Assembly (NCBI GenBank): GCA_017621035.1
Contig: JAGATY010000058.1
Location: 1-32,352 of the forward strand
DNA length: 32,352 nt
Source: Bacteroides sp.
GTDB taxonomy: Bacteria > Bacteroidota > Bacteroidia > Bacteroidales > Bacteroidaceae
Direction of reading: 5' to 3'
Part shown: positions 1 to 4,288 of the stretch, piece by piece
Position numbering within the stretch: position 1 is the stretch's first letter
How the letters are laid out: each line of letters starts with the position of its first letter
Program-made: the position numbers and the translations under genes
The notes under the pieces: generated by a model
The model's input: the letters and a program-made list of their open reading frames with translations, nothing else
Databases searched by the model: none
What the model was told of the DNA's origin: nothing

Positions 1-87
1 ACTGCCACTTTCATAATAATCCTTCAATACACTCAACTTGAATTGAAGGTCTAGTTTACGACGAGAACGTCGCTTCTTTTCTTCCAT
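1..87 (-). CDS. Partial transposase-like / HTH protein, N-terminus only
   Basis: The first 29 codons of a minus-strand gene run off the left edge. The start is the ATG at 87-85, and the peptide begins MEEKKRRSRRKLDLQFKLSV and continues LKDYYESGS. A very basic start followed by a helix ending in a Y-Y-E-S-G-S type turn resembles the N-terminal helix-turn-helix of IS3/IS911-type transposase OrfA proteins, which is inference from pattern only. No catalytic region is in view, so it could also be another small HTH protein. It lies downstream of and co-directional with the NVEALA gene, separated by an inverted repeat. Confidence 0.4.
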   Translation of the reverse strand, partial: MEEKKRRSRRKLDLQFKLSVLKDYYESGS

Positions 88-91
88 TTTT

Positions 92-121
92 TTACACGTT
101 TTAATTGTTAAACACGTGTAA
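92..121. repeat. Inverted repeat TTACACGT...ACGTGTAA
   Basis: TTACACGT (92-99) and ACGTGTAA (114-121) are perfect inverted copies around a 14-bp AT-rich centre. The element lies 5 bp upstream of the start of the truncated left-edge ORF. It could be an operator, or part of the end of a mobile element. Confidence 0.5.
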
Positions 122-133
122 AGTAAATCTGTA

Positions 134-352
134 CTAAGTCACTTTGTAAACATACTTCACTTTCTCTCCAGTACCCGGACATTCGATTTCCCCAACACCG
201 ACACAATTTATAGTGGTTTCTTCGTCTTCACCGGAAGCCAATGCCTCCACATTTCTTAACTCTACATCCGTCATTGGGGGACGTGAATGGGTGTGTGCGA
301 AACAAACTAAAAGCATAGCTGCAACGCCACCAATAAAAATTACCTTTCTCAT
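134..352 (-). CDS. NVEALA-family small secreted protein
   Basis: A 72-residue protein with a basic N-terminus (MRK) and a hydrophobic signal-like segment at about residues 4-19. The motif NVEALASGE follows at 34-42, preceded by a D-V-E-L stretch. After this comes a short tail with two cysteines (C50, C58) in the pattern CVGVGEIECPGTGEKV. The NVEALA motif followed by an acidic/Gly segment and a Cys-containing tail defines a Bacteroidales-specific family of small exported proteins (Pfam NVEALA) of unproven function. The leader-plus-short-tail layout resembles a processed peptide, which is inference. The gene is directly downstream of a membrane-bound winged-helix regulator and has its own promoter with two upstream direct repeats. 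The beta-propeller lipoprotein often said to accompany such genes is not in view. Confidence 0.8.
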   Translation of the reverse strand: MRKVIFIGGVAAMLLVCFAHTHSRPPMTDVELRNVEALASGEDEETTINCVGVGEIECPGTGEKVKYVYKVT

Positions 353-380
353 AGACTTGTGTATTTCAATTTACAGTAGT

Positions 381-437
381 CAAAAATAGAGAATAAAAAA
401 GGAATTAGGAAATTTTTGCGCTGACAGCCGCTGACAG
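381..437 (-). promoter_or_regulatory. Promoter of NVEALA gene with two upstream direct repeats
   Basis: On the minus strand TATTTTTG (388-381) fits the Bacteroides -7 consensus TAnnTTTG exactly. TTTC (412-409) lies 20 bp upstream, a one-mismatch -33 element. Just beyond it, CTGTCAGC occurs twice as direct copies (430-437 and 420-427) with a 10-bp period, one helical turn. Tandem sites with this period next to the -33 are the usual arrangement for OmpR-fold activators, and such a regulator is encoded immediately upstream. The predicted leader is about 20-25 nt. Confidence 0.6.
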
Positions 438-477
438 AAACAGTTTTTAGCGCGTAAACAAGACAGAGACGAAGAGA

Positions 478-1593
478 CTATTTTCCTGATGAAATGGGCG
501 ATTTTAGTGTATAAACATCCTCATCCAGCTCTATAACGTAAGAACTGACAGAACTCAATACTTTGCGTAAACGGGAGACAGCAGCATGCAACTTGTCCAT
601 ATTAAAATCTTCTCCCCAAAGCGTTTTGGCTATCTCTTCACGGCTTACTTTATGCTCTTCGGCCAAGATAAACAGCCTCAATAAGGCCAAGGAGTTTTTT
701 GAAATAGAACTTTTTTTCTCGCCACACGTGATGGTTCGGGCATCGAAGTCTACCAATAAATTCCCCAACAGATAAGTCTCACTCGTTTCTGCCGTTTGTG
801 ATAAGGGGAATATCTCTTTTACCGGAATCTCCTTTTTAATCACTTTCTCAACAACAACCACCTCTCTTTTAGCTGTTTCTTTTGTATGAACTTTTAACCA
901 AATTCTAGCACACAGGTCATAAATACGGAGAAAGAAAAGCAGAATCAGCAGAAAAAACAAGCCGAATAGGGAGATAGACACCCAGACAGCTGTCACTTCT
1001 TTCTCTTTACCAGATAGAATATAGCCGGTAAACTCTCCCTCACAGCGGAAACCTAAATAATAAGAGAGCAGACTGTCTGAGCAGGATATGTATAGAGAAT
1101 CGATAGAGTAGTGTTTAAGTGTTTTCCCCAATAGGTCAGTCCATCTGTACCGAATAGCACCCTGCAAAGGATTTTGTTGGGATGCCAACCGCCTATTCCA
1201 ATCGTTTTGCACAGAATCCACTGATAGCAAATCTTTTTCTAACAGACTGCTTACCACAATTCTTTGCCTAGTCTCCGGGTACAAACAGTTATCTGCTTTA
1301 ATTTGAGGGATGGGGTAAGGACGTTTTCCATATTCAGATATTGCCCACACCGTGTCAGAAATCCGGGGCTGCAGGGTTTGGTATTGGGGAGCATCTGTAG
1401 TAATGATTCTAACCTCATGGCCTTTATGCCTACCTATCTCCTGCTGCAAAGCCTCTCGGAACGCTTCTTTGGCTTCCGCCTCCCACACAGAAATCTGTGT
1501 GCGATAGGCAGTGTATCGCTCCCACGAGTAGCCCAACCAAGCGGTCAGGCAGACAACCAAAGTCAGTATGTAGGTAATCGTGCGTCGGGTCAT
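478..1593 (-). CDS. Membrane-anchored winged-helix transcriptional regulator
   Basis: A 371-residue protein with two predicted membrane segments (about 5-22 and 199-224). Between them is an extracytoplasmic domain of about 175 residues with no motif I recognise. After the second segment comes a charged linker (about 235-262), then an OmpR/PhoB-type winged-helix DNA-binding domain at about 275-365, with a recognition-helix region around SREEIAKTLWGED and KLHAAVSRLRKVL. This is a one-component, ToxR/CadC-like design with the order of parts reversed: sensor outside and N-terminal, DNA-binding domain inside and C-terminal. There is no receiver or kinase domain. It precedes the NVEALA gene by 125 bp on the same strand and follows glsB by 86 bp. 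The likely target is the NVEALA promoter (inference). Confidence is high for architecture and low for the signal sensed. Confidence 0.85.
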   Translation of the reverse strand: MTRRTITYILTLVVCLTAWLGYSWERYTAYRTQISVWEAEAKEAFREALQQEIGRHKGHEVRIITTDAPQYQTLQPRISDTVWAISEYGKRPYPIPQIKADNCLYPETRQRIVVSSLLEKDLLSVDSVQNDWNRRLASQQNPLQGAIRYRWTDLLGKTLKHYSIDSLYISCSDSLLSYYLGFRCEGEFTGYILSGKEKEVTAVWVSISLFGLFFLLILLFFLRIYDLCARIWLKVHTKETAKREVVVVEKVIKKEIPVKEIFPLSQTAETSETYLLGNLLVDFDARTITCGEKKSSISKNSLALLRLFILAEEHKVSREEIAKTLWGEDFNMDKLHAAVSRLRKVLSSVSSYVIELDEDVYTLKSPISSGK

Positions 1594-1679: not shown

Positions 1680-2666
1680 TTACTTACCCGGCAAGAAGAG
1701 TTTATTGGCACCGGAAGTGAGTGCACAGGCGTCCGGTTCGTTTTCTAGGAAGGACTCGATGTGGCGGATGCGCTTCTCTGCCAGAATCTCATCTACGGCA
1801 ATCAGGATACCGGTTTCCTCCACGTCTCCAAACTCATCGTTTATGGCCGTGCCAAACATACGCATGGTAGGGCTGAGGCTCATGTAGGCATTTACCAGGG
1901 GAGGAATATTATAACCCAACTTACGAACCTCGGCATTCAGAATCTTATAGTTTTCCTTGAAAGTATCTTTACAGAAGAGCTGTTCCAATTCGGCCTCGGG
2001 AGTCTCCAACTTCAGCGGCTCCATCGGGGTGACCAGTCCCTCTTTGTCGCCAAAGTGTTTCTTTAAGAAGTAGAGAATCATGTCGCGTCCCTGGCGGTGA
2101 TAGCTGGGGTACATGGTCACTTTGCCGAAGTAGTACTTCACGTTGGGCATGATAACCGTGAGGGCACCCAGTCCGTCCCACAAATTATCCAGGGCGAAGA
2201 GGCCTTTACTGTCCGAGCGGGTAGACTGATACTCCAGCGTTACAAACGAGCGACCCAACTCAATGGTGGTGGGCAGATAGTCCTTAAGAAACTCCTCCGA
2301 GAAGTTAAACATGTGTGAAGTGGCCAAAATCGGATGACCCTGCTCATCGAAACGCACGTCGGTACCCAGCAGATAGCGGTATCCGCCCAGAATCTCCTCA
2401 GCTTCAGGATTCCATACAATCAGCTGCTTATAGGGATTCTCCATCACGTCATACTCGTCGATGTCCATCGACTTGCCGGTACCTCCTCCGGCTGCACGAA
2501 AAGCAATCTCACGCAAACGTCCTATCTCCTTCATCGTGTTTGGCGAGTCCTGAGCTGTGATAATGTAAATCTGGTTGTGGCTACGATTGGTCATTCGCAG
2601 ACGCTTCTCTTCGGTTAACTCCGCCTTCAACAGTTCCTTGCTAATCGGTGCAATAATCTCTTCCAT
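1680..2666 (-). CDS. glsB: Glycine N-acyltransferase (GlsB), GNAT-type
   Basis: A 328-residue protein of the acetyltransferase / OlsB-like family (hemolysin-type GNAT). Family signatures include RLREIAFRAAGGGTGKSMD (51-69), the central ELGRSFV (136-142), and a later YPSYHRQGRDM stretch. In Bacteroides the GlsB-GlsA pair makes glycine lipids: GlsB transfers a 3-hydroxy fatty acyl chain from acyl-ACP to the amino group of glycine, giving commendamide-type N-acyl glycine. GlsA then adds the second acyl chain. glsB follows glsA by 34 bp on the same strand, so they are very likely one transcript. The ATG at 2666 is the only sensible start. Assignment rests on family motifs and the linked glsA gene; related enzymes make ornithine lipids in other phyla. 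Confidence 0.85.
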   Translation of the reverse strand: MEEIIAPISKELLKAELTEEKRLRMTNRSHNQIYIITAQDSPNTMKEIGRLREIAFRAAGGGTGKSMDIDEYDVMENPYKQLIVWNPEAEEILGGYRYLLGTDVRFDEQGHPILATSHMFNFSEEFLKDYLPTTIELGRSFVTLEYQSTRSDSKGLFALDNLWDGLGALTVIMPNVKYYFGKVTMYPSYHRQGRDMILYFLKKHFGDKEGLVTPMEPLKLETPEAELEQLFCKDTFKENYKILNAEVRKLGYNIPPLVNAYMSLSPTMRMFGTAINDEFGDVEETGILIAVDEILAEKRIRHIESFLENEPDACALTSGANKLFLPGK

Positions 2667-2700
2667 ATATTGGGGTTCTACTATTTATCTACTTCGGTTA

Positions 2701-3519
2701 CTATAATTTATATACTATCTCTTTTACATACTGTGCCCATTGCAGGGGAGTTTTCGACTTGTCGAACGTCTCCCAGGGTATCGGTTTGCCTATGGTTACG
2801 GTAAACGTCTTGTGCCGGTTCTTCAGCATCTCGTCTGCCAGGTAGAGCATGGCGATGTTGAACTTGATGCCCAGTGCCTTGCAAACATTAGCCAGGTTGT
2901 AGAAGAAGTTGGAGTTGCGCCCTTCAAAATGGATGGGCACCACGTTGCGCTTACTCTCCACACTCTTGGTGATGAAGGTTTTCTTCCACTCCAAGTCTTT
3001 GATGACACCCTGTTGCCGGCGTGAACAAAGCCCGGCCGGAAACATAATCAGTTGGTCGTCCGACGCAAAGCCTGCCTCCACCAACCGGGGAAAGTCCTTT
3101 GCCTGCTTACCTGTCTTATTGATAGGGATGCAGAGGGGTGCCAATCCGTGCAGATTCATCAGCAGGTCGTTCACCAAGTACTTCACCTTTCCATTATAAT
3201 GCTTGCCTAGAATGTAGCCCAGTGCAATACCATCCTGTCCGCCCAACGGGTGGTTGGAAACAAATGTGCAAAGACCCTCGGCCGGCAGGTTTTCCAGTCC
3301 TTTGACCTCCAGCTTAGCATCCAGAAACTCCAGACAAGCCTCTAGGAAATCAACCCCCACCTTACCATTCGACTCTCGCAAGAATACGTTCAATTCATCC
3401 TGATGCACGATGCGTTTTAGATACGATACCAAGAACTTTGGAACATATCTATAGTGCTTCGGAGCTTTTTCCCGAAGTATCCGGTCGATGTCTATAAGAA
3501 ACAAAGAGTCGTCTTGCAT
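2701..3519 (-). CDS. glsA: O-acyltransferase (GlsA), PlsC-like
   Basis: A 272-residue member of the lysophosphatidate acyltransferase (PlsC) superfamily. The catalytic His/Asp motif reads NHPLGGQD (H90, D96), with five residues between His and Asp rather than the usual four. The acyl-acceptor motif corresponding to FPEGxRS reads FPAGLCSRR (160-168). VVPIHFEGRNSNFF (193-206) fits the motif IV region. GlsA adds the second, ester-linked acyl chain to the N-acyl glycine made by GlsB at the inner membrane. No transmembrane span is obvious, so peripheral membrane association is likely. It is the first gene of the glsA-glsB operon and has a good Bacteroides promoter 25 bp upstream. OlsA-type activity on other amino-acid lipids is the alternative. 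Confidence 0.85.
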   Translation of the reverse strand: MQDDSLFLIDIDRILREKAPKHYRYVPKFLVSYLKRIVHQDELNVFLRESNGKVGVDFLEACLEFLDAKLEVKGLENLPAEGLCTFVSNHPLGGQDGIALGYILGKHYNGKVKYLVNDLLMNLHGLAPLCIPINKTGKQAKDFPRLVEAGFASDDQLIMFPAGLCSRRQQGVIKDLEWKKTFITKSVESKRNVVPIHFEGRNSNFFYNLANVCKALGIKFNIAMLYLADEMLKNRHKTFTVTIGKPIPWETFDKSKTPLQWAQYVKEIVYKL

Positions 3520-3784: not shown

Positions 3785-4288
3785 ATGAATAGTGTTACAT
3801 TTACCCAAGACCTTATCAGCGTACAAGACGAGCTGTTACGTTTTGCCTACAAGTTGACCTCCGACCGCGAAGAGGCTAATGACCTGCTGCAGGAGACCTC
3901 ATTGAAAGCCCTGGACAATGAGGATAAGTACACGCCTGACACAAACTTCAAAGGATGGATGTACACCATCATGAGAAACATCTTCATCAATAACTACCGC
4001 AAGGTGGTGCGCGACCAAACTTTTGTAGACACTACCGAGAACCTCTACCACCTGAACCTGCCGCGCGACACGGCCTATGAGAGCACCGAACGTGCCTACG
4101 ACCTGAAAGAGATGCACCGCATTGTCAACAGCCTGCCGCGCGAGTATCGTGTACCTTTCTCTATGCACATCTCCGGTTTCAAGTATCGTGAAATTGCAGA
4201 GAAACTGGGCCTTCCGCTGGGAACCGTCAAGAGTCGCATCTTCTTCACCCGCCAGAAACTGCAACAAGAACTGAAAGACTTCCGATAA
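3785..4288 (+). CDS. ECF-type RNA polymerase sigma factor
   Basis: A 167-residue sigma-70 family protein of ECF size. Region 2 covers about residues 12-75 (EANDLLQETSLKAL, then FKGWMYTIMRNIFINNYRK). Region 4 covers about 110-160 (LPREYRVPFSMHISGFKYRE, then KLGLPLGTVKSRIFFTRQKL), a clear helix-turn-helix. There is no region 1 or 3, and no anti-sigma gene beside it on either side, so its control must come from its own promoter or from elsewhere. The ATG at 3785 gives the standard N-terminus. A TAnnTTTG-like TACCTTTG ends only about four bases before this ATG; if used, the mRNA would be nearly leaderless. The gene is divergent from glsA and monocistronic, with a hairpin about 200 bp downstream. 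Its target genes cannot be read from the window. Confidence 0.9.
   Translation: MNSVTFTQDLISVQDELLRFAYKLTSDREEANDLLQETSLKALDNEDKYTPDTNFKGWMYTIMRNIFINNYRKVVRDQTFVDTTENLYHLNLPRDTAYESTERAYDLKEMHRIVNSLPREYRVPFSMHISGFKYREIAEKLGLPLGTVKSRIFFTRQKLQQELKDFR

Follow-up and report, generated by a model that had tools for sequence, protein, structure and literature searches.

A predicted membrane-anchored regulator accompanies one NVEALA peptide subtype and a putative tandem control site in Bacteroides

Introduction

Why does a gene for a small NVEALA peptide lie directly behind a gene for a membrane-bound transcription regulator, and do the two belong to one circuit? We know of no function for the NVEALA family. 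The question is raised by two genes near the start of a stretch of Bacteroides DNA (hereafter the window) that makes up one whole contig of 32,352 bp (C87) in a genome of 2.64 Mb and 93 contigs. A sequence-only reading of the window had taken the pair for a complete signalling unit, with a sensor in the membrane and a secreted peptide as its output or ligand. Here we follow up this proposal by comparing the regulator, the peptide and the DNA between them with their relatives in other genomes.

Results

The regulator

The larger gene (478-1593, minus strand) is an ORF of 371 codons whose product we read, from its PF00486 match, its homologues and hydropathy, as a membrane-anchored one-component regulator with the order N-terminal span, extracytoplasmic segment, second span, linker and C-terminal winged helix. 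The OmpR-type DNA-binding domain that had been proposed for its C-terminus was borne out: residues 295-349 (547-711, minus strand) match Trans_reg_C (PF00486) with 32.7 bits against a cut-off of 26.2, making this an OmpR/PhoB-type winged helix. A PDB profile search with the winged helix gave matches that include PcoR, CadC and KdpE, and the domain also scored against ToxR and TcpP chains. A two-component response regulator was rejected, as a Pfam scan found no receiver domain in the protein.

The two membrane spans that had also been proposed fared unequally in a crude hydropathy scan with a threshold. The second span was called in the window protein at residues 203-221 (931-987, minus strand), whereas the probable first span, placed by eye at about residues 5-22 (1528-1581, minus strand), falls below the threshold there, even though an N-terminal hydrophobic segment was found in 106 of 112 regulator homologues. 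A segment at 150-270 was present in 109 of the same 112, and the number of segments per homologue was two in 78, three in 25, one in 7 and four in 2. Because of the second span at 203-221 and the N-terminal segment of the homologues, the stretch between the two spans (about residues 23-202; 988-1527, minus strand) is predicted to be an extracytoplasmic sensor segment; in alignments it has a conserved stretch around YxGxRCExExTG. In a PDB sequence search this segment gave no match with E < 0.5 and none that was convincing.

The window's genome has a single copy of the regulator. Directly upstream of it, on the same strand, lie glsB and glsA of glycine lipid synthesis (1680-3519), and an ECF-type sigma factor is found at 3785-4288, with a match to the GFO_1088/PG0214 model that stays below the cut-off of that model. 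Among named genomes, relatives of the regulator were found at 13 loci, in Bacteroides records only; these records include B. cutis, B. cellulosilyticus DSM 14838, B. muris, B. rodentium and B. ndongoniae. In B. cellulosilyticus DSM 14838, an intact relative, clusters of regulator and partner lie in regions L106 and L107. Six regions (L113, L165, L202, L239, L241 and L243) hold regulator copies that are broken or incomplete, in some cases next to partner genes, and the module of regulator and partner seems to decay often.

The NVEALA peptide and its damaged end

As had been described, a small NVEALA gene follows the regulator on the same strand, after a gap of 125 bp. Its ORF of 72 codons (134-352, minus strand) contains NVEALASGE and two tail cysteines and matches Pfam NVEALA (PF14055) with 31.9 bits against a cut-off of 27. 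By hydropathy, residues 4-20 (293-343, minus strand) form an N-terminal hydrophobic export or anchor segment; the NVEALA motif (236-253, minus strand) contains an A-x-A that would fit a signal-peptidase-I-like cut; and the native part of the tail with its two cysteines (142-235, minus strand) aligns with the tail CxGxGSVDCPxxxxKVxYV of the subtype described below. No lipobox was seen by eye in the partner peptide, and a PDB sequence search with the peptide gave no match.

The 3' end of this gene has been overwritten. Window positions 1-141 form the terminal part of an insertion element present in multiple copies, and a transposase-like ORF (named by eye) starts within them on the minus strand. 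Positions 1-141 equal the first bases of contig C69, and positions 12-141 those of contig C38; three contigs begin with the element. A wholly native 3' end was rejected, as the element boundary at 141/142 falls within the NVEALA ORF, so that residues 1-70 are native, codon 71 is of both origins, and the element supplies residue 72 together with the stop codon. Most partner homologues extend several residues further, often with a GYSLE-like end, and a few end at about this point. The 31 native tail residues of the window peptide lie within the range of intact homologues (29-38 residues, 5th to 95th percentile), and therefore the truncated peptide may still work. The element has also cut off the cluster that usually lies downstream of the partner, which is absent from the window contig. 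Thus in the window the unit has lost the native 3' end of its peptide gene and stands without the rest of its cluster. It is doubtful that this copy is a complete signalling unit, despite a remaining tail of ordinary length. At another contig start, that of C11 (region L010, 1-120), we noted an inverted repeat of 60 bp without mismatch, which probably arose in assembly.

Pairing across genomes

A regulator profile was run against each of the 158 genomes of the genus, and by the regulator matches listed we picked 99 regions, beside a further one (L242) taken on other grounds. The set yielded 112 full-length regulators; many loci come from related species, so that the 112 are not independent events. 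Within 800 bp of these regulators an NVEALA match lay downstream in 83 cases, divergent in 12 and convergent in one, and was missing in 16. Well-scoring pairs, with a non-convergent NVEALA gene of at least 40 bits within 800 bp, were formed by 92 of the 112, and besides the 16 unpaired regulators another four had weak or convergent matches only. Among the 16, four regions end less than 600 bp from the gene, some regulators stand in tandem groups, and one case (region L210) has an adjoining NVEALA match that was listed in a search of 60 genomes. The 12 divergent pairs disfavour operon read-through as the sole cause of the pairing.

The reverse test gave a similar picture. Among the matches listed, and with fragments included, 98 of 120 genes of the partner subtype lay within 1 kb of a regulator; 10 of the remaining 22 were re-examined, and nine of these adjoin a lower-scoring regulator (43.5-77 bits). 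Over the 158 genomes, again among the matches listed, both genes occurred in 56, the partner only in six and the regulator only in six (Fisher p ~1e-28), and all six partner-only genomes proved on re-examination to have a lower-scoring regulator. Enrichment of the regulator beside NVEALA genes, which the sequence-only reading had named as the check on its claim, is what the 92 pairs and the 56 genomes show, and they do not refute it. The link holds for one NVEALA subtype and not for the whole family: in a first sample of 60 genomes NVEALA genes were found in 33 and regulator homologues in 19, and most intact regulators of that sample were followed by an NVEALA gene whose tail was of the same type. 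Beyond the genus, 301 genomes of the family were sampled, and regulator matches (E ≤ 1e-25) were confined to three of 30 genera, its own included; at seven loci of the two other genera the partner was adjacent in three and 0.8 kb away in one, and three had none with the tail.

The partner subtype and its cluster

The peptides beside the regulator represent one NVEALA subtype, with the tail C-x-G-x-GSVDCP-x4-KV, whereas in other NVEALA proteins the same leader precedes unrelated Cys-rich tails. Mean pairwise identity of the tails was 43% for partners, compared to 20% for the other NVEALA proteins of the same regions and 16% for shuffled sequences. The leaders of these other NVEALA proteins are more alike (45% against 37%). 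A loose expression of the tail pattern was matched by 83 of 86 partners and 12 of 98 others; the set was collected by means of a profile built on aligned partners, so that very different NVEALA proteins may be missing from these counts. The cysteines that had been called conserved come in pairs, exactly two in 74 of 86 partner tails and two, four or six in 81 of the 98 other tails.

Across 190 NVEALA sequences, alanine occupies position -3 in 186 and position -1 in 187, and the end of the motif would thus fit cleavage by signal peptidase I. The neighbouring N, E and L hardly vary either, so that the cut stays a prediction. The leader ends in NVEALA and showed no double-glycine cleavage site.

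The gene that comes next behind the partner on its strand (n = 92) was a propeller in 48 cases and another NVEALA gene in 30. Across 86 partner loci, in regions of limited length, propellers were found at 80, further NVEALA genes at 72, DUF1573-like proteins at 58, a lipoprotein-like family (c2) at 24 and signal-peptidase-like proteins at 12; in these counts the name propeller was taken from direct scans of two proteins, and the other names from resemblance by eye to scanned proteins of region L009. The c2-like protein of L009 had no Pfam match, and no C39-type transporter was present among ten cluster proteins scanned.

Region L009 (contig C16, 1-20000) is a second NVEALA cluster of the window's own genome. 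This genome has eight NVEALA matches, seven of them above the cut-off, and five genes, with other tails, lie in the C16 cluster. By Pfam the cluster also encodes 6-bladed propeller proteins, a DUF1573 protein, a signal-peptidase protein and a TPR protein, with further ones alike by sequence; the proteins of the cluster include a signal-peptidase-I-like protein, an O-antigen-ligase/TPR protein and a TPR membrane protein weakly resembling the BT3442 family. A search of this genome for the propeller that often comes behind the partner gave no match, which does not speak against its presence. The idea that a TPR-type regulator, as on C16, excludes the partner subtype was not upheld, as three of the four matches listed lay in loci that carry the regulator.

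A candidate control site between the genes

The gap between the two genes contains a pair of proposed operator half-sites, TGTCAG (431-436, minus strand) and, exactly 10 bp on, a second TGTCAG (421-426, minus strand), picked out by repeat search and period statistics. A Bacteroides -7 box, TATTTTTG (381-388, minus strand), lies 48 bp downstream of the first half-site; passages in PMC7366714 and PMC12632263 give TAnnTTTG as the consensus of this box. Without mismatch the pair of half-sites occurs once in its own genome. A regulon within this genome was rejected, as the only other site found has a single mismatch; this operator-like sequence, CTGACAGTATATGACAG on contig C39 (58998-59014, region L242), may be a second target.

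A direct repeat with a period of 10 bp was widespread in such gaps. Runs of at least 6 at this period were found in 52 of 85 non-redundant gaps, compared to 5.0 in shuffles, and the other periods from 6 to 21 gave such runs in 3-13 gaps. In a first set of 23 stretches the longest period-10 run averaged 7.78 (3.82 ± 0.25 in shuffles), with a run of at least 6 in 18 of 23 compared to 1.55 in shuffles. Upstream of the regulator a period-10 run was found in 0 of 22 stretches; in the 220 bp upstream of the regulators of the first set, six of 22 stretches had a run of at least 6 at period 11. The layout relative to the promoter recurs as well: the exact TAnnTTTG was present in 40 of 62 loci (4.0 in shuffles), and where a gap had both a good repeat and a TAnnTTTG-like box, the repeat started 45-50 bp before the box in 31 of 42.

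The half-site varies with the regulator (TGTCAG, GGTCCG, GGTCAG, GGTTAG, GTAAG), with period and spacing kept. Exact TGTCAGN4TGTCAG occurred 36 times in 60 genomes (226 Mb), compared to 12 for the reversed control pattern, and 18 of the 36 sites lay at most 450 bp upstream of an NVEALA gene (11 genes), where 0.012 sites were expected. For regulators below about 100 bits a period-10 run of at least 6 was found in one of 18 gaps, and that one was A-rich. OmpR/PhoB-type regulators bind head-to-tail direct repeats with a period of 10-11 bp; the period-10 repeat is widespread in the gaps, and the regulator might bind it.

Chance neighbourhood is rejected by the pairing in both directions, the re-examined exceptions and this association of site and gene. 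Inheritance of the two genes together as mere neighbours, with no functional coupling, could draw on the recurrence of both genes in clusters found several times within some genomes; it is hardly credible given a pairing that persists where regulators have no more than 22-45% identity to the alignment's first row, the occurrence of both gene orientations, and the conserved layout of repeat and promoter. A dedicated circuit from regulator to promoter is, on this comparative evidence, very likely. Because the repeat lies upstream of the promoter, the regulator would probably be an activator rather than a repressor.

Does the peptide act back on its regulator?

In a mirror-tree test, partner tails co-varied with the sensor segment (partial rho 0.20 given the winged helix; none of 500 permutations was as high), and the tail gave 0.04 with the winged helix given the sensor. 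The leader correlation was 0.30, higher than that of the tail, and therefore the co-variation does not single out a contact between tail and sensor. The tail (46% identity) is also more conserved than the sensor (27%).

One reading of these results is that the peptide is output only, the regulator sensing some other envelope or host cue with the partner as its most conserved target and no feedback. Pairing, repeat and repeat spacing bear solely on control of the promoter by the regulator, and the co-variation of tail and sensor is weak, which suits this reading; it fails to explain, however, why the regulator is accompanied by one subtype with a conserved tail and not by the variable NVEALA proteins of these clusters, and we consider it unlikely.

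A second reading, to our mind rather doubtful though less so than the first, is that the N-terminal helix keeps the partner anchored as a fixed sensor subunit, like ToxS with ToxR or VtrC with VtrA, and is not a diffusible signal. An adjacent partner, as in such co-component systems, was found in both the forward and the reverse counts, to the point of a near-obligate neighbour; the peptide has one hydrophobic N-terminal segment and no lipobox by eye, the winged helix scores against CadC, ToxR and TcpP chains, and VtrA/VtrC, as described in part of PMC9214523, offer a precedent. Against a fixed subunit, a promoter and an operator of its own seem to serve the partner, the genes are divergent in 12 of 112 loci, unlike the overlapping vtrA/vtrC, and both leader and NVEALA motif are common to cluster peptides that are not beside a regulator. 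Whether the peptide acts on its own regulator is, in our estimate, evenly poised.

Discussion

The comparison shows a pairing of regulator and partner, a single peptide subtype, a repeat and its spacing, a cluster order and a split between leader and tail. On this basis we infer binding, activation, cleavage, a disulfide and feedback on the sensor, as follows. The regulator would be a transmembrane one-component transcription activator whose winged helix binds, from the membrane, the two half-sites 10 bp apart and about 48 bp upstream of the partner's -7 box. Binding would switch on the partner gene and the cluster of NVEALA, beta-propeller and DUF1573-type genes behind it. For the partner peptide we envisage export by way of the N-terminal segment and, probably, a cut behind NVEALA and the formation of a single disulfide; the conserved tail would probably feed back on the regulator, at its extracytoplasmic segment, as a signal or co-component. 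The peptide has its leader in common with the hypervariable Cys-rich peptides of the cluster, just as an inducing peptide does with bacteriocins. Taken as a whole, this chain of activator, peptide export and feedback is plausible, with chances that we put barely above even. Only tentatively do we go on to suggest a peptide pheromone circuit of gut Bacteroides, a possibility that we favour less, in which one transmembrane protein might be both receptor and transcription factor, and the NVEALA partner, exported and disulfide-bonded, might be the autoinducer; read by the sensor segment, it might act through a 10-bp tandem operator to induce clusters of hypervariable Cys-rich NVEALA peptides with the same leader.

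The period-10 direct repeat in the intervening DNA is new. Bacteroidia are rich in transmembrane transcription regulators according to part of a survey (PMC10269533), and that part makes no mention of a regulator-NVEALA pair. In the open-access journal papers searched, the word NVEALA was not found, and no description of a regulator-NVEALA system was found there either, among the best-ranked matches where lists were long. The finding ties one NVEALA subtype of common human gut bacteria to a dedicated regulator and a probable control site; it sets one conserved member that looks like a signal apart from diversified ones that look like effectors, and the family becomes testable.

Several known systems resemble this one in part. 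Within Pfam NVEALA (PF14055), of which the window protein is a member by score, the family splits here into a regulator-linked subtype with a conserved tail and members with variable tails. Bacteroidales GG-leader peptides with C39 transporters are likewise small precursor peptides, as far as the relevant part of PMC10352776 describes them, but here there is no GG site, and none of the ten cluster proteins scanned was a C39 transporter. In peptide pheromone systems an exported peptide switches on its own regulator from outside. Unlike strain-specific pheromones, the partner has a tail more conserved than its sensor.

Members of the ToxR/CadC family have an N-terminal cytoplasmic winged helix, a single span and a C-terminal periplasmic domain. 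The regulator shares with ToxR, CadC and TcpP a membrane-anchored OmpR-type winged helix, an extracytoplasmic sensor and the lack of a receiver domain; it differs in layout, with the winged helix C-terminal (residues 295-349 of 371) and two spans (203-221 and the N-terminal one of the homologues), and in having as its partner a peptide of 70-80 aa with an apparent promoter of its own. With VtrA/VtrC and ToxR/ToxS, as far as they are described in part of PMC9214523, it has in common a fast-evolving regulator and a small neighbour that reaches the periplasm, but here the genes do not overlap, and a partner of 70-80 aa, of which about 35 make up the tail, is too small for a lipocalin domain. Furthermore, unlike in those systems, the partner's leader is common to other exported peptides and a promoter-like gap usually lies between the genes.

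In Gram-positive class II bacteriocin regulons, an inducing peptide is encoded beside its sensor and has a leader common to the bacteriocins. The present clusters are alike in having one conserved peptide by the sensor and a leader common to diversified, effector-like cluster peptides; they differ in using a single-chain transmembrane regulator in place of a kinase and response regulator, and an NVEALA leader with a hydrophobic N-terminus in place of a double-glycine leader. If the pheromone circuit suggested above is true, gut Bacteroides would use direct peptide signalling through a receptor that is itself a transcription factor, and would turn on their NVEALA clusters much as inducer-controlled bacteriocin loci are turned on.
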